Assembly: GCA_021325145.1 (NCBI GenBank)
Contig: JAJPHR010000079.1
Location: 1 to 64,000, forward strand
DNA length: 64,000 nucleotides
Source: Verrucomicrobiota bacterium
Lineage (GTDB): Bacteria > Verrucomicrobiota > Verrucomicrobiia > Limisphaerales > Pedosphaeraceae
Direction: 5' to 3'
This document shows, one piece after another, positions 20,971-47,593 of the stretch (its first letter is position 1; the number at the start of each line of letters is the position of its first letter). Below the pieces are notes generated by a model, which did not search any database, had not been told where the DNA came from, and was given only the letters and a program-made list of their open reading frames with translations. Position numbers and translations under genes: made by a program.

Positions 20971-22011
20971 TCAACGGAAAAGCCGCGACCAAAACTGAAG
21001 GACGCCTTGCGTGGAACCCCAGGCGAGCCACAAACAAAGCGCGGTCAAGGCAAACAGCTTGATCCACTCGGTCCACCACTTCCTCCGAATCAACGAGCCC
21101 AATAGAACAATGGACATTGGCCAAAAGATCAGGCCCACATGGTTGAGGAATGTGCCAATAACCAATCGGAATTTGCCCAGCGGCGTGCTCAAAGGCGTCA
21201 GTGAACGAGGGACGAAATTCCATAAAGGGCCGGTAATCAGCACAATGACGATCAACAAGGAGATGGCATTGGAAACGCGAACGCCGAGTGAGTCGGGCAT
21301 TATCTCGTCGGCATCGCGGTTTGAGTCGTACCAAATTTTTTCCACTGAAGCACGGCGGGTGATTCCCTTGAGCGGTGAAAAAACCAGACGACCAAGAGTG
21401 GCCAGAATTTGCAGTCCGGACATGGCGCGGAATCGGCGTCCGGAAGTGAGAACCGTTTCCCGCAACACGACGAAGCGGCCTTGCCGTTTAAGCGCCAACG
21501 CCATCGCGCCTTCCTCGGCGCAATAAAGGCGCTCGTCAAAACCACCCGTCGCGTGAAAGGCTTCGCGGGTGCAGAACATAAAGGCGCCGCCGGTAAATCC
21601 CACGAGCTTTCCGCCGACGGCGATGAATAGCGATAAAAGCCGGGCGTAAAGCGGCAAGATGCCGTCGAACATGGTGGGAGCGCCGCCCCCCACAGCGCCT
21701 TTGTCCAGACAGCGGAGCGCGGCGGCAACGGCGCGGGGATCGGCGATGGTGTCCGCGTCCACGAAAAAAAGGCGCTCGCCGCGCGCGGCGCGTCCGCCGG
21801 AATTGCGGGTGGCGGCGATCTGGCGATGGTTGACGGACACGACGGTGGCGTTGTGCTGACGCGCGATTTCGGCAGTCGAGTCGGTGGAGGCGTCGTCCAC
21901 CACGATAATTTCATAAGGCTGCTCCACAGCGCGGGCCGTATCGTGGATGGCTTGCAGCGTTTTGCCGAGGCCGGATTGCTCGTTGTGCGCCGGAACGATG
22001 AACGAAAGCAT
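20971..22011 (-). CDS. Family 2 glycosyltransferase with C-terminal membrane segments (paralogue 1)
   Basis: The 346-residue protein opens MLSFIVPAHNEQSGLGKTLQ and has the GT-A Asp motifs DDASTDSTAE and FFVDADT, typical of GT2 enzymes that use nucleotide-sugars. A Q/RxxRW-like region is not obvious. The C-terminal 110 residues contain two or three hydrophobic segments (SLLIVIVLITGPLW, ALTALCLWLAWG), so it is predicted to work at the inner membrane. It is a tandem paralogue of the gene upstream. The first roughly 70 codons are almost identical between the two, whereas the C-terminal halves have diverged. Confidence 0.88.
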   Translation of the reverse strand: MLSFIVPAHNEQSGLGKTLQAIHDTARAVEQPYEIIVVDDASTDSTAEIARQHNATVVSVNHRQIAATRNSGGRAARGERLFFVDADTIADPRAVAAALRCLDKGAVGGGAPTMFDGILPLYARLLSLFIAVGGKLVGFTGGAFMFCTREAFHATGGFDERLYCAEEGAMALALKRQGRFVVLRETVLTSGRRFRAMSGLQILATLGRLVFSPLKGITRRASVEKIWYDSNRDADEIMPDSLGVRVSNAISLLIVIVLITGPLWNFVPRSLTPLSTPLGKFRLVIGTFLNHVGLIFWPMSIVLLGSLIRRKWWTEWIKLFALTALCLWLAWGSTQGVLQFWSRLFR

Positions 22012-22091: not shown

Positions 22092-23150
22092 TCAGCCATT
22101 GTAGAAATGAGCCAGCCAGTGGAAAAGCGACGGCCAAAACCAAATCACGACCGGCGTGGCGCCCCAGGCACACCACAAACACAAGGCGATCAATGCTAAA
22201 AATTTTATCCGCTCCAGCCAGCGTCTTTGTCGAAGCAGGCTGCGAAGGAGAAAATAGGCGCAGGGCCAACAGACCAGTGCGACATGACAGCCAAATATCG
22301 CGATGCCAATTCTGATCTGGCCCAGCGGGGCATCCCGGGGTGTCAACGACCAGGGGACAAAAGCGAATATCGGGACCACCAGCAATATTACGAGCAACAG
22401 CATGATGGCGTTGAACACTTGAATGGCCGGTGAGCCGGGGATTTTGCCGTCCTCCTCGCGATTTGAGTCATACCAGATTTGTTTCACGGACGAACGTTGG
22501 GTCAGTATTTTTGGAAAAAAGGCCATGCGGAACAGGGCTGCGAGCATCTGCGGCCCACGAATTCCGCGCATCCGGCGACCGGACGTGGCTACATATTTCC
22601 AAAGCACGACAAACCGCCCTTCCTGTCGCAAGGCCAGCGACAGCGCCGCATCCTCCGCTCCGAAAAGCCGTTCATCAAAACCGCCGACCGCTTGAAAAGC
22701 TTCGCGGGTGCAAAACATGAAAGCGCCGCCGGAAATCCCCGCCAACCTCATGAACAATCCGAGCCACAACACTAAAAATTGCGCGTAAAGCGGCGCATCT
22801 CCTTCAAAACGCGCTGGAGCGCCGCCGCCGACTGCGCCCTGGTCCAGGCAACGCAGGGCCGAGGCAACGGCGCGGGAATTGATGGTCGTGTCCGCATCCA
22901 CGAAAAACAGGCGGTCACCATGCGCCGCGCGGCCTCCGGAATTGCGGGTGGCGGCGATCTGGCGATGGTTGACGGACACGACGGTGGCGTTGTGCCGACA
23001 GGCGATTTCGGCGGTGGCGTCGGTGGAGGCGTCGTCCGCCACAATGATTTCATAAGGCTGGCCGACGGCGCGGGCAGTATCGTGGATGGCTTGCAGCGTT
23101 TTGCCGAGGCCGGATTGCTCGTTGTGCGCCGGAACGATGAACGAAAGCAT
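22092..23150 (-). CDS. Family 2 glycosyltransferase with C-terminal membrane segments (paralogue 2)
   Basis: The start was set at the ATG at 23150, which gives the same MLSFIVPAHNEQSGLGKTLQ opening as its neighbour. The longer open frame upstream begins at TTG and has no homologous content. The protein is 352 residues with DDASTDATAE and FFVDADTTINS as nucleotide-sugar and metal motifs and hydrophobic C-terminal segments (AIMLLLVILLVVPIFAFVPW, LIALCLWCAWG). It lies 108 bases downstream of the large phosphoesterase gene and 80 bases upstream of paralogue 1. All three may be one transcript. Confidence 0.88.
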   Translation of the reverse strand: MLSFIVPAHNEQSGLGKTLQAIHDTARAVGQPYEIIVADDASTDATAEIACRHNATVVSVNHRQIAATRNSGGRAAHGDRLFFVDADTTINSRAVASALRCLDQGAVGGGAPARFEGDAPLYAQFLVLWLGLFMRLAGISGGAFMFCTREAFQAVGGFDERLFGAEDAALSLALRQEGRFVVLWKYVATSGRRMRGIRGPQMLAALFRMAFFPKILTQRSSVKQIWYDSNREEDGKIPGSPAIQVFNAIMLLLVILLVVPIFAFVPWSLTPRDAPLGQIRIGIAIFGCHVALVCWPCAYFLLRSLLRQRRWLERIKFLALIALCLWCAWGATPVVIWFWPSLFHWLAHFYNG

Positions 23151-23258
23151 GATGATTGGACTGATTGGGGCCGGTTTCGTTTTGCAGGCAAAGGTAGAGC
23201 GGTGTCGCCGCTGGCGCGTGATGCGGACGCTCCGGGGAATTCTCGCCGGCAACCAGAC

Positions 23259-26200
23259 TCAATCGTCGTCGTCCTTTTTCTGCGTGGGATCGAGGGCGAG
23301 GCCGAGTCTTTTCAGACCTTTGCCGTGGGGGCCGGAGAATTCGGAGGGGTAGCGGAGGTTGCCTTTTACCGAGTGCCAGATGATGCGGTTGAAGGAGTCT
23401 TCGTTGATGAGGTCGGGTTTGCTGAGGTCCATTTTCCGGCTTTTGTTGGCCCAGTAACGGTCCTGGCGGTCGAGGGCGGCGGTGGTGCCGGGGTTCATCT
23501 GATCGAGAGGGATGTTGTTGGCCAGCGCGGTGTAGGGGGTGAAGTCGGGCGCGTTGGTAAAGCAATCGCTCATCAACGGGCCAACGGCGTCGTGCTGGTT
23601 CATCGGGGGGAGGCCGAGAATCTGTTCGATGGTATGGACCGCGCCGGCCTGCGAGTAAAAGGTGCTGACGGTTTGGCGGCGTTTGGTGTAGGGGCTGGCA
23701 ATCAGGCAGATGGAACGGTGACCGTCCACGTGGTCGGAACCGTATTGGGGATCGTCCTCGATGATAAAGATGCAGGTGTTGCTGCCGAAGCGGCTTTTGG
23801 TGACGGCTTCCACGACTTGCCCGAGAGCGAGGTCGTTGTCCGCAACCTGGGCGAGCGGCGTGGGGAATCCGGGCGATGCGCCGGAAGTGTGGTCGTTGGG
23901 CAGGTAAAGAACATTCAAGGCGGCCCAAACACCGTTGGATTCAGCGGCATGCAATTCCCCAATGAAGCCCTGGGCGCGGACCACATCGGGAATGCCGAGA
24001 TTCCAACCGGGAACGTTGGTGGAGGTGTAGGGAAGCAGGGCGCTGATGATATACTGCGCGAGATGAATTTGGCCGGCGTGGTTGGTGAAGTCGGCATAAA
24101 TTTGCGACCAGGTGGCCGAACCGGGGGTTGGATAGCCAAAGCCCAGTTCGCCATAGTTGCGAAAGGTGAGGCCGTGATTCAGCGCGTTGTTCCAAACGAA
24201 GCCAGAGGAGGAGAACGTGAGGCATTCAGTCCCAAGGCTGTAACCGCGGGCAAAGCCGCCGAACGATTTCTCGATGTGGTCGGTGCTGTGGCCCTCCACA
24301 GCCCAGGAATGGCCGTCAGCGGAAAGGACTCCATTACAGTAGTAGTTATCCAGCAGCACGTACTGGGTGGCGAGGGCGTGATGATTGGGAGAAACCGATT
24401 GGGGATAAAGACAGAGGTTCGAGTTGCCGTTGCCCTGCGGGAGGTCGCCGAAAAAGTTATCGTAGGTTTTGTTCTCCTTGATGATGTAGAGGACGTGCTG
24501 AAAGACCGAAGGTTCGCCGACTCGTTTTGGAACCGGCAACGGCGATTGGCCGTTCCGGGCGGGCGCCTGGGTCTGGAGGACGCGCGGCAGGAGACAGTTC
24601 TCCTGGACCTGGGCGGTGTATTTGCTCAAGGATTCCGACTCAGGGATGGGGATTTTCCCGATGGTGCCGAGATAATGGAACAAATCGCCCGACCAAGAAC
24701 CGGCTCCCTTCACATTGACGACGTAAACGCAATTGCTGTCAGCCACCACCGCTCCCGGATACCAGTCGGTGGGAAGAAAGCCCTGGATCAAGCTGTTGGT
24801 GTGGCGGGCGTTGGGCAATTCGATGACCGCGATGGCGTTGTTACCCGCGGCGGCCACAAACAGCTTCTGCCCGTCTTTGCTCAGAGCAAGCCCGTCGGAG
24901 TCGCTGCCAAAGGGAAGCGACGGATCGGGACGCACGAGAATGGTTTCCTTGACGGCGCGGCTCGCGGTGTCGATAACGGTGACGGTGTCGGAGTTGGCGT
25001 TGGCGACGTACAACGTGCCGCCATCGGGAGTCAATTCGAGATCGGAAGGATGCAGCCCGGTGGGAACCTGGGCCACTTCCTGGTTTTGAGTCAAATCCAC
25101 GAACGAGACGACACCGCTGGCGCCCACGCCGCGGTTGTCCACCACCACAGCCGTGTCGGTGGCATTGCCTGTGAGATCGCCGGCCACCGGATGGCGGCCA
25201 CCCCAGTCCGAAACGTAAGCCATGGTTCCATCCGGTGACAAGGCCACGTCCCAGGGAGCCACGCCAACATTGATTTCCGCAAGCTCAGTTCCTGCGACGA
25301 GATCCACTACGGACAGCGCGTTGCCCCGGCCAAGGCAGAGGTAGGCGCGGGTCCCATCGGCGGACACAGCCACGCCGCAAGGATCACCGCCGCCCAAGGT
25401 GATGGTCCGCGACCACGTCAGGGTACCGTCGGTGGCGATCAAATAATCGTAAAGCTGGTTCCTGGCGGCGGTGACGTAGAGGTGCATCCCGTCCTTGCTC
25501 GTCACGATGCCGTGCATCGAAGCGCCGTCCGCGGGGTAACTGAGCGTTTGCGTAAGCCGCCAACTCGCGACGTCCACGACCTGGACCCAAAGGGCATTTT
25601 TAACAAAGGCTTTCGTTCCATCGGGCGACAAGGCGAGGTCCACGGGACGCCCACCGAGGAAATAGATCTGCCCCGCCGGGTGGACGATCTGACCGGAAGG
25701 CAGCAAGCTTTCGCCCCCAATCTGCTGGGTCAGACCGAAGGCTGGAGGAGAGATTTCCTTCACGCGGTAGAGACACAACGCGTCGCTTCGCGGGAGCGTG
25801 ATGAAGTGATTGGTGGTTGGGCCGCCGATATTTTGCCAGCCGCGGCCCGCAAAGTTAGTCGTGGTTTCAACTTGAAACGGACCGTTGCGCCCGACCCAAC
25901 TTAACGTGACGGTGGAAGCCGTCGCGCCGGTAATGGAAACCAGCATGCCAAGGTTGGCGGGCGCGATTCCAAAAGCGCCAGGCCCGCCCAACGCGGCGAT
26001 GGCTTCCGGTGGCAGGCAGCCATCGAGGAACTGGATGCTATTGACGAAACCGGGCTGGGTAAAACCTCCTCCAGCGAGCCCGGCGGTAAAAAGCTGGGCC
26101 GTGGGACCAAGAGCGTAGCGGCCATCGACGCCACCCGAGAGCGACTGGCTGGCCGCCTTCACGCCGTTTGTGTATTTGGTGAGTTGCTGGCCAGGAGGAG

Positions 26201-26753
26201 CGGTGAGGTCCACAGCAAAGGCGATTCGATACCACGTGTCCGGGGCCAGGGAACCGTCGAATTGGCCATCTGCGCCCAGTCCATCGGGCATTGGGAGAGT
26301 ATGATTGTCTCCCACGTAGAATTCCGCGTCGTTGCCCGGATGGTTGAAGGGATCGGTCTGGAACAAGGCCCGCCAGTTGCTGCTGCTGGCGGCGGGATAC
26401 ATGATGTCCATGATTAGCGTGTATCGATTCACGAAGTGACCGCCGCCGTTCGGCTTCGCACCATGGCGCAGGTAAAAGCCCTCGGTGGCCGAGTTGGCGC
26501 CGAAACTCATGACCGTCGCCGGCTGGCCGTTGATGTTCATAGTGCCGAACGTGGTAATGTTCGTTGTGTCGCCGATGAATTGAAGATCAGCGCCGATGGT
26601 GGCGCGGAGGTCGCCAAAACGAAAATCCCACTGGCCAGTCACCACCGGAGTGGCAGCGCCCGCAGACAAAACGAGGAGAAACAAGGCAAGCGCGCCCAGA
26701 AGACGAAAAGGCCCACCATTATTAAAAGCAGAACACCTGACACACATAATCAA
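23259..26753 (-). CDS. Large secreted protein: LamG-like domain, YVTN/YncE beta-propeller and phosphoesterase domain
   Basis: The 1164-residue protein has a signal peptide (LLGALALFLLVLSAGAA). A concanavalin-like LamG domain (about 40-260) comes next, and then a short 'FYR-type' module (about 270-335). A YncE-like propeller (about 350-700) shows repeats such as LALSPDGTKAFV, VAVSADGTRAYL, VALSPDGTMAYVSD and LELTPDGGTLYVANANSDTV. The C-terminal phosphoesterase domain (about 770-1130) contains IIKENKTYDNFFGD, VEGHSTDHIEKS and FIIEDDPQYGSDHVDGHRS, the metal-binding motifs of the alkaline-phosphatase-like family. Propeller-phosphoesterase fusions are known; the N-terminal LamG extension is an extra. 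It is predicted to be extracellular or periplasmic. Confidence 0.88.
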   Translation of the reverse strand: MIMCVRCSAFNNGGPFRLLGALALFLLVLSAGAATPVVTGQWDFRFGDLRATIGADLQFIGDTTNITTFGTMNINGQPATVMSFGANSATEGFYLRHGAKPNGGGHFVNRYTLIMDIMYPAASSSNWRALFQTDPFNHPGNDAEFYVGDNHTLPMPDGLGADGQFDGSLAPDTWYRIAFAVDLTAPPGQQLTKYTNGVKAASQSLSGGVDGRYALGPTAQLFTAGLAGGGFTQPGFVNSIQFLDGCLPPEAIAALGGPGAFGIAPANLGMLVSITGATASTVTLSWVGRNGPFQVETTTNFAGRGWQNIGGPTTNHFITLPRSDALCLYRVKEISPPAFGLTQQIGGESLLPSGQIVHPAGQIYFLGGRPVDLALSPDGTKAFVKNALWVQVVDVASWRLTQTLSYPADGASMHGIVTSKDGMHLYVTAARNQLYDYLIATDGTLTWSRTITLGGGDPCGVAVSADGTRAYLCLGRGNALSVVDLVAGTELAEINVGVAPWDVALSPDGTMAYVSDWGGRHPVAGDLTGNATDTAVVVDNRGVGASGVVSFVDLTQNQEVAQVPTGLHPSDLELTPDGGTLYVANANSDTVTVIDTASRAVKETILVRPDPSLPFGSDSDGLALSKDGQKLFVAAAGNNAIAVIELPNARHTNSLIQGFLPTDWYPGAVVADSNCVYVVNVKGAGSWSGDLFHYLGTIGKIPIPESESLSKYTAQVQENCLLPRVLQTQAPARNGQSPLPVPKRVGEPSVFQHVLYIIKENKTYDNFFGDLPQGNGNSNLCLYPQSVSPNHHALATQYVLLDNYYCNGVLSADGHSWAVEGHSTDHIEKSFGGFARGYSLGTECLTFSSSGFVWNNALNHGLTFRNYGELGFGYPTPGSATWSQIYADFTNHAGQIHLAQYIISALLPYTSTNVPGWNLGIPDVVRAQGFIGELHAAESNGVWAALNVLYLPNDHTSGASPGFPTPLAQVADNDLALGQVVEAVTKSRFGSNTCIFIIEDDPQYGSDHVDGHRSICLIASPYTKRRQTVSTFYSQAGAVHTIEQILGLPPMNQHDAVGPLMSDCFTNAPDFTPYTALANNIPLDQMNPGTTAALDRQDRYWANKSRKMDLSKPDLINEDSFNRIIWHSVKGNLRYPSEFSGPHGKGLKRLGLALDPTQKKDDDD

Positions 26754-34385: not shown

Positions 34386-37300
34386 ATGGAAACGCAGAAG
34401 CTGGGTCGTTCCTTCTCCTTCATCGTGCCTGCAAGCCGTTCGTTCAAAGCCAGGGGCGTCATCTTGTCATCCTGCATTGCGCTCATGCTGGGCTCGCTTT
34501 CCGCATCCGCCGCCATCTTGAGTTGGTCTGGCGGGAGCTCGACGGGGTCCACCTGGAACGATAGCGCGAACTGGGGTTTCGTAGGTACGCCCACGAACGG
34601 TGACACGCTGATTTTCTCGGGTGGCCAGCCACGGCTGGCCAACAGCAATAATATCCCCGGCCTCACTCTGAACCAAATCCGGTTCGTCGGCGTGGGCGGC
34701 GGTTACGTCATCACCGGCCAGGGTTTTACTGTGACCAACAATATTGAGGCCACGAATACTTCCGGCGTGGGCAATATCATCTCCAACAACATCGTCCTGG
34801 GAACAACAGGCGATTTTGTGGTGGACGTCGGCGGCGGAGCCGTGTTGACGCTGGGAGGAATCCTTTCGGGCAGCGTCGGCCTGGTCAAAACCGGGTTCGG
34901 CATACTGATTCTCGCTGGCCCGCAATCCAACACCTACGGCGGGACCACCACGGCGATTGCCGGACAGCTTCAACTTGCCAAGAACGGAGGCGTTCTGACC
35001 GCCACTGCCATTCCCGGCAACCTCCTCGTCGGCGACGGCACCGGTACTGCCCTGGTTCAGTACATTTTCAACAACCAAATCGCAGACACTGCGAATGTCA
35101 CTGTCAACAACGGCTCCAAGTATGATTTGAACAATCAACTCGACACCATCGGAACCAACCTCACCCTCATAGGCGCGGCCACTGTGAACATCGCCTCCGG
35201 GGGTTTGACCATGAGTGCTCCAAACACCATCACGGCCACTGGACTCAGCGTGGCGACGATCTCCGGTAACAGCTTCCTCCAACTCGGCGCGGGACCCTGC
35301 TCGATGAACATTGGCGAAACCTTGGCCATCTCTGCGGGCATCTTTGGCAGCGCCAGCATCACCAAAACCGGGTCCGGCAATTTGATATTAATGGGTTCGA
35401 ATGGCTACACTGGACTGACCACGCTCAGCCAGGGATGGCTCTGGGCCTCGAATTCGCTCGCGTTGGGCACGACCAATGGCGGGACAGTCGTCAGTAACGG
35501 GGCGACACTCGTGCTCGAGGGCGGCATTGGCATTACGAACGAGCCCCTGACTCTCAACGGACCCGGTGAACCCAATTGGGCGGCATTGGACATTGAAAGT
35601 GGGGATACGAACACTTGGGCCGGTCCAATCACCCTCAACGCAGACAGCACTTTCGGGGTTTTCATTCCGGGGGCCAAATTGCGGATCACCGGCCCCATCA
35701 GCGGTCCAGGCGGGCTGAGCCAAATCTATCCTGGCGGCGGCACAGTGCGGCTCGAGGGCACGAATTTCAACACCTATGCCGGCCTGACCGTTGCCGGCGG
35801 CGGCACGCTGGAATTAGCCATCACCAATGGGACATTCGGCGCAGCCATTCCCAATTCACTGGTGGTGAGCACCAACGCCACAGTCCGCCTTTTCAACAGT
35901 TGGCAGCTCTATCAGCCAAGCAAGTCCAGCTCGTACTCGCTAACGATGTATCCCGGTTCCCTCTTTGACACCGCCGGTAACAGCGAGTGGATTGGGCCCT
36001 TGAGCATCATGGACGCGCAGATCACCACTGGTATTGGCGTGCTTTACCTCAACGACGACATCACCGTCGTTTCCAACAGTTTCGGACCTTCGGTGATCTC
36101 GGGAAATGTCCAACTCTTCACCTCCACTCACACCATCACTAATACGGGCCATGTTTTCTCGCCCGATTTGGTCTTCAACGCGAATATCGGCAGCAGCGGG
36201 TTACTCGGCATAATCAAAACCGGGGATGGGGAGGTCAGCCTCGGCGGGACGAACAGTTCCTTTACGGGACCAGTAACTGTAAATAATGGCAGTCTGTGGC
36301 TTCAAAGTTCAAACGCCCTGGGTGCCTCGACTAATATCACGGTCAACTCCGGCGGCACGCTCTTCCTGAACGGCACCCTGACCATGGCCCCAAAAGCGTT
36401 GAGCCTGAGCGGCGGCGGTTGGGGCGGCGGCGGCGCGCTGCTCGACAACAACGGGAGCAGCTTCTGGCCGGGAGACATCACGCTCGCGTCAAACACCGTG
36501 ATCAACACACTCACCCCCTACAACCTGACTCTGGGCGGAGGCATCAGCGGGCTGGGCGGCGTCACTTTCAATGGCACCGGGACAGTCACTTACAGTGGTT
36601 CATCCGTTAATAACTACGCCGGCGTTACCACAGTTAACAGCGGGACTTTGCAGTTAGGCAAAATTGGGTTTGACCGCGCCATTCAAAACGCCCTGGTCAT
36701 TGGCGATGGCACTGGTGGGCCGAACGCGGATGTGGTCAGGCTGCTAAGCCTCAACCAAATCGCCAACACTGCCACTGTTACGGTCAACAGTTCCGGTTTG
36801 CTGGATGAAAACGGATCTTTGGAGGGGATTGGTGGTCTTAATGGTAATGGAAATGTTATCGTGTCGGGGTTTGATTTGGTCTTGTTTGGCAGCGGTTCCT
36901 ATCAATTTGACGGTGTCATCTCCGGCAACGGGCAGGTCGAGGTGTTCAACTCCAGCACCAACGTCTTTAACGGCAACAACACTTACACCGGTCTGACCAT
37001 TCTGGACGCTGGCGTTTTGCGCGTAAACGGATCTCAACCTCAAAGCTCGGTCACCGTGGCAAGTAGCGCCACCCTGGGTGGCTCGGGCACCGTTGGCTCC
37101 GTGACCAACTCCGGCACCCTGTCACCCGGCGCCGATCCCGGCGTGCTTACCACCGGCATGCTCACCACGAGCAATCTCATCTTCACCGGCACCGGGAAAC
37201 TCATCGCCAAACTGAACGGCCCCATTCCCGGTGCCAACTACAACCAACTCAACGTTCGGGGCAATGTCGCCCTCTCCAACGCCACGCTGCAGGTGACCGA

Positions 37301-38954
37301 GCTGTTCACAAACCCGGTGCCCCTCAACCAGCAATTCACGCTCATCAACAACGACGGCTTGGACGCCATCAACGGCCTCTTCAACGGAGTAGCCAACGGC
37401 ACCTCCCTGTTTTTCGGTGGTTTCGCGGTCGTCGCCAATTACGCGGGCGGCAGCGGCAACGACTTTGTGCTCACCGTCACCAACATCCCAGGCGCAGGCG
37501 TCAGCGCCTCGGCTCTGCCTGGCAATGGCGGCCCCTCGCTTGACCCAAATTCCTGCAGCAGCGTCACCGCCATCTTCACCAACCTAACGAGTTCGCCCAT
37601 GCCGATTGCCAACGGCACGCTTTCCACCACCAACCCCAGTGTGATCATCACCCAACCTCACTCGTCCTACGGCAACGTGCCCGCCTTCGGCACGGGCACC
37701 AACCTCACTCCGTTCCAGATTTCCGTGCTCCCCAGTTTTGTCTGCGGAAACGACATCAACCTCAACCTTGGCATCAGCAGCCTGACCTACGGCGCCTTTA
37801 GCGTTCCCCTGGTCCTCCATACCGGAGTTGCCGGTGCTCCAAACCGATACGATGTCAGCGTGGTTACGAATATCCCCGACGTCGGCACCATCGAATCCAC
37901 CAATGTCGTAAGCGGCTTCACCGGCCCGCTGCTCAAGGTGGTCGTGTCCCTATGGCTGACCCACCCCATCGATTCGGATTTGACCATCAGCTTGATTTCA
38001 CCGGATGGGGTCACTGTTCCATTGAGCGCCGCGAACGGTAGCGGCGCCAATTTTGGCGGCGGCTGTTCACCGGACGCCAATCGGACGACGTTTGATGATG
38101 CGGCGGCCACGTCCATCACCGCGGCAAGCCCCCCTTTTATTGGCACGTTTCGCCCCCAGGGCAGCCTGGCCTCGGCAGCTCACAGCACCGCCAACGGAAA
38201 CTGGCGATTGCGGGTGACGGATAGCTTTGCGGGCAGTCTCGGCGCTTTGCGCTGCTGGTCTCTGTTTCTCTCCCCGGCCGTCTGCAATCCAGGCGGTGGC
38301 GCTTGCGCCCTGTGTCCGATGGTCATCACCAATACGCTGACCACCAACAGCGCGCTTCAAATTGATCGGATAACTCGCGACGGCATTGTCAACACTTGTG
38401 GCCTCCCCAAGACTTACCCGGGAGTCATTGGTGACAGCGGCCAGCGACACTATGAAGCCTATCCTTTTTACAACGGCCTTTCAAACACGTGCGTCACCGT
38501 CGTCCTGGCTGAACCAAACGGCGGCTGCGACTTGTTCAGCGCTGCCTACTTGGGCAGCTTCAATCCCACTAATCTCGCTCAAAACTATCTGGGCGATGGC
38601 GGTCTTAGTACCTCCGGTAGCAGCTCGGAAACCTATTCCATTAATGTGCCTTCAAATTCCGTCTTTGTTGTGACGGTGGCCGAAGTGGATTCCGGGACCT
38701 GCGGCACTCCTTATACACTGAGCGTGACCGGCGGCGATTGCCGGCCTATGCTGAGCGCCACACAAGTGGGCACCCAGCAGTTGCAAATTGGCTGGCCCAC
38801 CATAGCGGGCGGCTACGGTCTGGAATCATCGCTTTTTATTTCGCCCACGAACTGGGCCATCGTGACCAACCAGCCCATTGCCACCACCAACCGGTTCAGC
38901 GTCACGAATACGATTGCATCGCCCAGCAAATTCTACCGCCTGCAAAAGCCTTGA
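34386..38954 (+). CDS. Giant secreted beta-helix protein with autotransporter-type repeats, P-domain and C-terminal FYR module
   Basis: The 1522-residue product has a long signal region (CIALMLGSLSASA). Six or more autotransporter-associated beta-strand repeats span residues about 130-900 (GLVKTGFGILILAGPQSN, SITKTGSGNLILMGS, GIIKTGDGEVSLGGT, NNTYTGLTILDAGVL). They are very rich in Asn, Thr, Gly and Ser. A proprotein-convertase P-domain follows around residues 1155-1295 (VVVSLWLTHPIDSDLTISLISPDG, NGNWRLRVTDSFAGSLGAL). The end is a short module finishing KFYRLQKP. There is no C-terminal outer-membrane barrel, so export must use another route. Likely a cell-surface adhesin or matrix protein. 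Confidence 0.85.
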   Translation: METQKLGRSFSFIVPASRSFKARGVILSSCIALMLGSLSASAAILSWSGGSSTGSTWNDSANWGFVGTPTNGDTLIFSGGQPRLANSNNIPGLTLNQIRFVGVGGGYVITGQGFTVTNNIEATNTSGVGNIISNNIVLGTTGDFVVDVGGGAVLTLGGILSGSVGLVKTGFGILILAGPQSNTYGGTTTAIAGQLQLAKNGGVLTATAIPGNLLVGDGTGTALVQYIFNNQIADTANVTVNNGSKYDLNNQLDTIGTNLTLIGAATVNIASGGLTMSAPNTITATGLSVATISGNSFLQLGAGPCSMNIGETLAISAGIFGSASITKTGSGNLILMGSNGYTGLTTLSQGWLWASNSLALGTTNGGTVVSNGATLVLEGGIGITNEPLTLNGPGEPNWAALDIESGDTNTWAGPITLNADSTFGVFIPGAKLRITGPISGPGGLSQIYPGGGTVRLEGTNFNTYAGLTVAGGGTLELAITNGTFGAAIPNSLVVSTNATVRLFNSWQLYQPSKSSSYSLTMYPGSLFDTAGNSEWIGPLSIMDAQITTGIGVLYLNDDITVVSNSFGPSVISGNVQLFTSTHTITNTGHVFSPDLVFNANIGSSGLLGIIKTGDGEVSLGGTNSSFTGPVTVNNGSLWLQSSNALGASTNITVNSGGTLFLNGTLTMAPKALSLSGGGWGGGGALLDNNGSSFWPGDITLASNTVINTLTPYNLTLGGGISGLGGVTFNGTGTVTYSGSSVNNYAGVTTVNSGTLQLGKIGFDRAIQNALVIGDGTGGPNADVVRLLSLNQIANTATVTVNSSGLLDENGSLEGIGGLNGNGNVIVSGFDLVLFGSGSYQFDGVISGNGQVEVFNSSTNVFNGNNTYTGLTILDAGVLRVNGSQPQSSVTVASSATLGGSGTVGSVTNSGTLSPGADPGVLTTGMLTTSNLIFTGTGKLIAKLNGPIPGANYNQLNVRGNVALSNATLQVTELFTNPVPLNQQFTLINNDGLDAINGLFNGVANGTSLFFGGFAVVANYAGGSGNDFVLTVTNIPGAGVSASALPGNGGPSLDPNSCSSVTAIFTNLTSSPMPIANGTLSTTNPSVIITQPHSSYGNVPAFGTGTNLTPFQISVLPSFVCGNDINLNLGISSLTYGAFSVPLVLHTGVAGAPNRYDVSVVTNIPDVGTIESTNVVSGFTGPLLKVVVSLWLTHPIDSDLTISLISPDGVTVPLSAANGSGANFGGGCSPDANRTTFDDAAATSITAASPPFIGTFRPQGSLASAAHSTANGNWRLRVTDSFAGSLGALRCWSLFLSPAVCNPGGGACALCPMVITNTLTTNSALQIDRITRDGIVNTCGLPKTYPGVIGDSGQRHYEAYPFYNGLSNTCVTVVLAEPNGGCDLFSAAYLGSFNPTNLAQNYLGDGGLSTSGSSSETYSINVPSNSVFVVTVAEVDSGTCGTPYTLSVTGGDCRPMLSATQVGTQQLQIGWPTIAGGYGLESSLFISPTNWAIVTNQPIATTNRFSVTNTIASPSKFYRLQKP

Positions 38955-45937: not shown

Positions 45938-47593
45938 TTGAACCAACCCTTTCCGAAAAGCCTCGCTGCCTTCGCACTTGTGGTGTGTCTCCTGATCGCT
46001 CCAAACGACTCGGATGCCGCTGGAGTTACTGTCATCACGCATGGGTTCAACAGCGACGTGAAGGGTTGGGTGACCGGAATGGCTGGTCAAATTCCGGCGT
46101 ATTCACGTTTTCCAGGAACCAATTTCACAATCTACACCATCACCCTGACGACGGATGGGGCCAACTATTTTTCCCAGTGGTCGCGTGACGCGGGCGGTTC
46201 ACCGTCGCTCTCCGACTCGGGTGAAATCATCGTCAAGCTCGATTGGAGCCAGATGGCTGGCACATTGAATATCTTCGATCACTCGATCTACGATATCAGC
46301 ACCTATGCCGTCGCCTCGATCGCGAGTTCGGTGCTCTTGCAAACCAATTCGATTTCGGACCTCGGAGGACATGCGCTGGCAGAGTTTCCGATCCATCTCA
46401 TCGGCCATAGCCGTGGCGGCTCGCTCATCTCCGAACTAAGCCGCCGCCTGGGAACGAACGGAGTCTGGGTCGATCATCTGACCACGCTCGATCCTCATCC
46501 ATTTAACAACGATGGAAACAATGATCGCTCTTACCTTCCGACTTCTCCCACGGACGCCTCCGCTGCGAATACGCCCGCGACCGTGCTCTATGCGGACAAT
46601 TTTTGGCAGGATTATGGCACCAGTCCCCTCGACCCGAACGGCGAACCAGTTTTCGGCGCGTATGTGCGTTACCTGTACAACGTGAACAGTAACCTTAACG
46701 GTGGAGGATACAGCGAGCCCGCCGCAGCCCACTCCGATGTCCACCTGTGGTACCACGGAACCATTGCCTGGGCAACGCCGACGAGTGACACGGAAGTCTC
46801 AATCAGCAACGCGCAACGACAGGTGTGGTGGGCCGCGGACGAACAGCGCGGAACCAACTCCGGCTTCGAATTCAGCTTGATCGGCGGCAGCAACCGCCTC
46901 AGCGCCGATCAGCCACTTGGTCCCGGGTTCCCGATGATCAAGGACGGTTTCAACCAGTGGTGGGATTTCGGGGCCGGAATTTCCGGCAACCGCGCCGCGC
47001 CAACGACGAACAATGGAACCTGGCCCAGCCTGATCAAATTCGACCGGATGGATACGAATCCTGTCGCGCAAGGTCAGAGCATTTTTGTAAAGCTGTTTTA
47101 TCAATGGGCGCGACCCGCCACGAGCAACGCCACTCTCAGCGTTTACCTGGACAACGATTGGAATCCGCTGAACACGAACCAAAACTGGCTCTGGCAAACC
47201 AATCTTCCCGGCACGGGCGCCAGTGGCACGGGAGTTAACGCCGGGACGTTCGCAATCCCCTTCGCCGTCACCAACGCTCCTCCCGGCTGGCACTCGCTTT
47301 TCGCCAGGATCAGCGCGGGCGGCCAAACCCGTTATCTTTACGCTCCCGAAAAGGTCCTGGTGCTTCCGAGTTCGCAACCGCCGGTTCTCAACATCACACG
47401 CATCAGTTCCTCACAAGTGCAGATCGGTGTTAATGGCCTGAGCGGTCAAGCCATCGTCCTCCAGACGAGTTCCAACCTGCTCACCTGGCAGGTTCTCGTA
47501 ACCAACACTCTCTCCGCCAACGCCTGGGTTTATACCAACAATCCGCCAGCGGGCACAAAAGCGCGATTTTATCGAGCAATGCTTGGGAATTGA
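45938..47593 (+). CDS. Secreted lipase/esterase with a C-terminal FYR-type module; TTG start
   Basis: The 551-residue protein starts at a TTG, since no ATG precedes its signal peptide (FALVVCLLIAPNDSDAAG); this is an unusual start. The alpha/beta-hydrolase core begins VTVITHGFNSDVKGW and has the nucleophile elbow FPIHLIGHSRGGSLISELS (Ser near residue 155), with further catalytic Asp and His expected in TTLDPHPF and DVHLWYHG. The second half is beta-rich. The end (VQIGVNGLSGQAIVLQTSSN to KARFYRAMLGN) is a module shared with two other large exoproteins of this window. It likely acts outside the cytoplasm on lipid or polysaccharide esters. Confidence 0.85.
   Translation: MNQPFPKSLAAFALVVCLLIAPNDSDAAGVTVITHGFNSDVKGWVTGMAGQIPAYSRFPGTNFTIYTITLTTDGANYFSQWSRDAGGSPSLSDSGEIIVKLDWSQMAGTLNIFDHSIYDISTYAVASIASSVLLQTNSISDLGGHALAEFPIHLIGHSRGGSLISELSRRLGTNGVWVDHLTTLDPHPFNNDGNNDRSYLPTSPTDASAANTPATVLYADNFWQDYGTSPLDPNGEPVFGAYVRYLYNVNSNLNGGGYSEPAAAHSDVHLWYHGTIAWATPTSDTEVSISNAQRQVWWAADEQRGTNSGFEFSLIGGSNRLSADQPLGPGFPMIKDGFNQWWDFGAGISGNRAAPTTNNGTWPSLIKFDRMDTNPVAQGQSIFVKLFYQWARPATSNATLSVYLDNDWNPLNTNQNWLWQTNLPGTGASGTGVNAGTFAIPFAVTNAPPGWHSLFARISAGGQTRYLYAPEKVLVLPSSQPPVLNITRISSSQVQIGVNGLSGQAIVLQTSSNLLTWQVLVTNTLSANAWVYTNNPPAGTKARFYRAMLGN

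Follow-up and report, generated by a model that had tools for sequence, protein, structure and literature searches.

A FYR module found mostly at the C-termini of at least 150 proteins in a Verrucomicrobiota genome is a candidate sorting or surface-anchoring domain

We found that one domain of about 70 residues, the FYR module, occurs in at least 150 copies in the 6.8 Mb genome of a Verrucomicrobiota bacterium, mostly at the extreme ends of exported proteins, and that it looks like the tag of an undescribed protein-display route. The count comes from a 30-row profile and covers the best 150 of 339 candidates (the weakest at E 3e-4); it is a floor, because direct reading revealed more copies outside the listed matches. 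In soil and water, Verrucomicrobiota are abundant and break down polysaccharides; to our knowledge, little is known of how their large exoproteins come to lie on the outer membrane or past it. One domain, present in no library we searched, labels much of this exoproteome, giving annotators a domain to define and experimenters a testable handle.

The original prediction was that three unrelated exoproteins in the stretch of DNA analysed here (the window, 64,000 nucleotides) share such a module. The shared module stood up in all three, but the coordinates given for it, 34386-38954, span just one of them. That one is a surface protein of 1522 residues (34386..38954, plus strand; assigned from its open reading frame and domain matches), which has a predicted signal peptide read from the sequence (METQK...LSASA; 34386..34511), PATR matches in five stretches (E 8e-18) and a proprotein convertase P-domain match (P_proprotein, E 2.5e-10; residues 1184-1293, 37935..38264, plus strand); family-library scans gave no match to a beta-barrel in this protein. 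Its final 71 codons (38739..38951, plus strand) form module 1, which ends KFYRLQKP-stop, scores E 2e-23 with the 30-row profile and was also modelled as a structure. Module 2 (47372..47590, plus strand; profile, and a model with a pLDDT of 88.8) makes up the final 73 codons, ending KARFYRAMLGN-stop, of an exported, alpha/beta-hydrolase-like, esterase-like protein. The latter is a 551-residue open reading frame with a TTG start (45938..47593, plus strand), a predicted signal peptide read from the sequence (NQPFPKSLAAFALVVCLLIAPNDSDA; 45938..46018, plus strand) and Thioesterase and Abhydrolase_6 matches that lie only below threshold. Module 3, recognized by profile, is internal: it ends LCLYRVKEI and occupies approximately residues 265-336 of 1164 (25746..25961, minus strand), between the N-terminal region and the propeller of a beta-propeller/phosphoesterase exoprotein (23259..26753, minus strand; open reading frame with Lactonase, YNCE and Phosphoesterase matches) whose predicted signal peptide (MIMCVRCSAFNNGGPFRLLGALALFLLVLSAGA; 26652..26753, minus strand) was likewise read from the sequence. 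The module is absent from all other genes of the window.

Pairwise BLASTP matches among the three modules (E 0.004, 0.43 and 0.36) are too weak to prove kinship, so profiles were needed. An HMM built from 27 copies elsewhere in the genome, with the window excluded, gave the three segments 60.5, 38.4 and 30.7 bits, while the next best among 886 window frames reached approximately 5 bits; since its rows had first been found via a profile that included the three window modules, some circularity is left in this comparison, although its margins are wide. Among 15,000 shuffled segments, the best scored 14.7 bits, compared to 68, 44 and 38 for the real ones. Thus the three segments belong to one family, as had been proposed by eye, a kinship that a pairwise search would miss. 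A profile made from these three rows alone found 83 places in the genome, the best one outside the window at E 9e-12. It had also been claimed that none of the three proteins has a known sorting tag, and this agrees with scans of the three proteins and 30 modules against Pfam and NCBIfam (2025-2026 copies), in which the module received no match above threshold and only single matches below it. We found no description of the domain in the open literature; unpublished or subscription-only accounts are possible.

To count positions in the chain, DNA was fetched around all 150 places, of which 147 had a stop codon in view. The suggestion that these modules sit at protein ends was upheld on this scale: 138 of the 147 copies finish no more than 10 residues before the stop. 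About 6% of copies are internal; among them are the one in the window propeller protein, some in tandem and a few that follow a signal peptide directly. As the propeller copy already illustrates, terminal position is a strong rule rather than an absolute one.

We note several unusual arrangements. The module lies right behind a signal peptide in two different genomes (contig C25:1282-1458 of this genome, locus L069, and L147:4001-4201), and the L069 carrier looks like a formylglycine-enzyme-like protein of the SUMF1 type; in both, the module is used N-terminally. Tandem modules occur at C60:250-663 and C93:36623-37021 of this genome, at G293:C7:1770-2837 and at L142. A Pedosphaera sp. metagenome-assembled genome (MAG) has five modules in one 565-residue frame, which suggests that the domain is also able to act as a repeat unit.

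Most carriers look exported, and their bodies are diverse. That they would be signal-peptide proteins was borne out, in that 122 of 129 terminal carriers (~95%) have a signal-peptide-like N-terminus, whereas such a start is seen in 87 of 157 other long frames taken from around the modules and in 12 of 34 frames of the window; the heuristic is crude and permissive, so only the difference between carriers and background counts. With the module removed, the carrier bodies group by sequence into 81 unrelated clusters, 68 of which have a single member, and a sample of 64 bodies gave matches to 92 Pfam families, including Ig, laminin G, subtilase, kelch and GSDH. A further TM-like segment is present in only 3 of 106 carriers. 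Lipoprotein anchoring was set aside: a lipobox-like motif is found in 5 of 106 carriers, which is about the background level.

The end of the chain itself is restricted. After F-Y-R, nearly all copies have a tail of 3-7 residues, most commonly four, and of 139 copies 70 have Pro and 32 have Gln at the very end (102/139, compared to 25/157 background frames; p = 2e-24). This ending holds at tail lengths 4, 5, 6 and 7, and thus it is the chain end, not an alignment column, that is constrained. Moreover, Ala, Gly, Ser, Thr, Cys, Val, Leu or Ile is last in none of the 139 copies, compared to 65 of the 157 background frames. All four Pro codons, both Gln codons and all three stops are in use at module ends; the pressure therefore acts on the protein, and the idea that codon or stop context fixes the last residue was ruled out. 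We also set aside a role for terminal proline in translation pausing, since Gln, and elsewhere Glu, serves equally. Internal copies follow no Pro/Gln end rule.

Of 40 copies drawn from 40 further Verrucomicrobiota genomes, 37 are closed, and 36 of these are terminal, across 18 family-level groups. Their chains end in P (16), E (9), D (3), Q (3), N (2), K (2) and Y (1). From this mix we conclude that the Pro/Gln preference is strongest in the lineage of the window and that the avoidance of small and aliphatic ends applies throughout. The module is common in Verrucomicrobiota, with matches at E 1e-4 in 106 of 289 genomes (the best 20 candidates per genome were scored), and nearly absent from Planctomycetota, with 2 of 199 in a sample; a small-genome genus of the same class (g3) has no module among the genomes listed. 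A consensus probe reached Pedosphaera-type and other Verrucomicrobiota MAGs, each with 81 to 144 modules, as well as a Chthoniobacter MAG with 12 and a MAG labelled Planctomycetota with seven; the seven (L145, G289) may reflect transfer or mis-binned contigs. This probe also gave a few poor loci, of which one in Rhizobium (L159) was discarded as a chance match.

The module is predicted to fold as an FN3-like sandwich of about 70 residues with strands A, B, C, C', E and F, ending after F. Two AlphaFold2 runs, on alignments of window modules and modules from other genomes, gave all-beta models with six strands of at least 3 residues (pLDDT 87.3 and 88.8). Foldseek matched the module model to FN3 (top), Ig-like and CBM56 domains, all weakly (E 0.08 or worse for the FN3 run). 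Comparison of the module profile with FN3 domains of the same genome by hhalign gave 74% probability (E 2.9e-5), and another comparison 58%; the alignment places F-Y-R-[LV] on FN3 strand F (Y-x-F-R-V), in agreement with alignments to titin and FN3con. The FN3 profile runs approximately 20 columns beyond the end of the module, and from this together with the strand counts we infer that strand G is missing and that an edge of the sandwich would be open. The module may be remotely similar to FN3 (PF00041), in its W/Y/L core positions and in profile alignment over strands A-F, but differs in its predicted lack of strand G (~17-20 residues), its fixed terminal position and its near-invariant F-Y-R; none of 30 modules matches Pfam fn3 above cut-off.

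A C-terminal domain that tags exoproteins is known as a kind of thing; what is new here is the family, the fold variant and possibly the system. We assign the module to none of the known families, because for each of them one or more defining features are absent from it or present only in part. Like the PEP-CTERM/exosortase pair (PF07589, PF09721), first seen in Verrucomicrobium spinosum (PMC1569441), it is a C-terminal tag on diverse exported proteins, but PEP-CTERM consists of a motif, a TM helix and a basic tail, whereas the FYR module has none of the three and is predicted to be all-beta. The genome does encode three exosortases; their substrates, about seven PEP-CTERM proteins, are a separate and smaller set than the roughly 20 times commoner FYR module, and we rejected exosortase as the FYR system.

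PATR repeats (PF12951) of proteobacterial type V autotransporters precede a beta-barrel, and elsewhere a type V barrel or PEP-CTERM stands at that place. In contrast, every one of the 14 PATR proteins in this genome, the surface protein of the window among them, has the FYR module at its end instead of a beta-barrel, which is the pattern expected if the module replaces the display device. Several of these PATR proteins (among them, for example, L238, L239, L240, L241, L242 and L243) form a subgroup with the pattern LSWPADHxGWxLxxQTN...FFRLRHP.

The nearest functional analogue appears to be the C-terminal domain (CTD) of type IX secretion (T9SS; TIGR04183/PF18962, Por_Secre_tail), analogous in build and not the same family. 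Both are ~70-80 residues long and stand at the extreme C-terminus of unrelated signal-peptide proteins; export depends on the last residues of the T9SS CTD, which is an Ig-like sandwich (PMC4804311), and the FYR module is predicted to be a C-terminal Ig-like beta-sandwich as well. They differ in that the FYR module ends F-Y-R-[LV]-x-x-P/Q, has six predicted strands compared to seven and is found in another phylum.

We lean, by a modest degree, towards the interpretation that the FYR module is a C-terminal sorting or surface-anchoring domain of Verrucomicrobiota exoproteins, read by a putative receptor. The N-terminal signal peptide would take the carrier via Sec to the periplasm, where the module would fold as an FN3-like six-stranded sandwich without strand G. 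A putative receptor in the outer membrane or surface layer could then read the terminal F strand (F-Y-R-[LV]) together with the free C-terminal residue, and would either export the protein or hold it outside; both the recognition by a receptor and this outcome are inferred. More tentatively, the receptor of such an outer-membrane export or display system may donate the missing strand, in donor-strand pairing with strand F, and check the free C-terminal residue. If so, roughly 3% of the proteome of Pedosphaera-type bacteria, the PATR proteins included, would pass through this system. Specific predictions on recognition follow from the restricted last residue and from the absence of strand G. 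Against the sorting interpretation, internal, post-signal-peptide and tandem copies exist, a pattern that a general binding or structural domain would show; the window also holds exported proteins without the module, and the restriction on the last residue could equally stem from avoidance of C-terminal proteases.

Two other explanations are serious rivals, and either could overlap with sorting. It is possible, if doubtful, that the FYR module is simply a ligand-binding module for carbohydrate or matrix, comparable to CBM56/CBM32 or to FN3 adhesive domains, that fastens exoproteins to polysaccharide or to the cell's own matrix, and that its place at the chain end is incidental and read by no export step. 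This would accommodate the internal, N-terminal and tandem copies, and it draws on PDB profile matches to glucanase/chitosanase carbohydrate-binding domains (E 2e-5) and on a Foldseek match to BhCBM56 (TM 0.63/0.55, at a weak E). However, the carbohydrate-binding match is partial, spanning only the W-containing half of the module, and ordinary binding modules neither sit at the C-terminus in 94-97% of cases over 18 families nor have a restricted last residue; moreover, every PATR protein of this genome ends in the FYR module. Less probably, the module is a structural end cap against periplasmic or extracellular C-terminal proteases, the Pro/Gln end serving to avoid recognition of the Tsp/Prc type. 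The complete lack of A, G, S, T, C, V, L and I as last residue (0/139) fits this, as do the E, D and N ends elsewhere in the phylum, which make the rule look like an exclusion of non-polar ends and not a fixed letter; it leaves unexplained, though, why one fold should recur, in this phylum only, on 81 bodies with no kinship to each other, and why F-Y-R should be near-invariant.

That the module is a disguised T9SS CTD, in an organism with a T9SS, we regard as very improbable, even though size, place and general fold class are alike (PMC4804311). The motif differs, Por_Secre_tail has no match in the genome and TIGR04183 none among the modules. SprA_N (PF14349) has no match in the genome either (the assembly is 94.7% complete), and SprA is likely absent; this negative is soft, because the control genomes were silent too.

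Within the window, Rfam gave no match. The propeller/phosphoesterase gene is adjoined by two family-2 glycosyltransferase-like genes (20971-22011 and 22092-23252, minus strand), and the near-identity of their N-terminal halves points to a recent tandem duplication.
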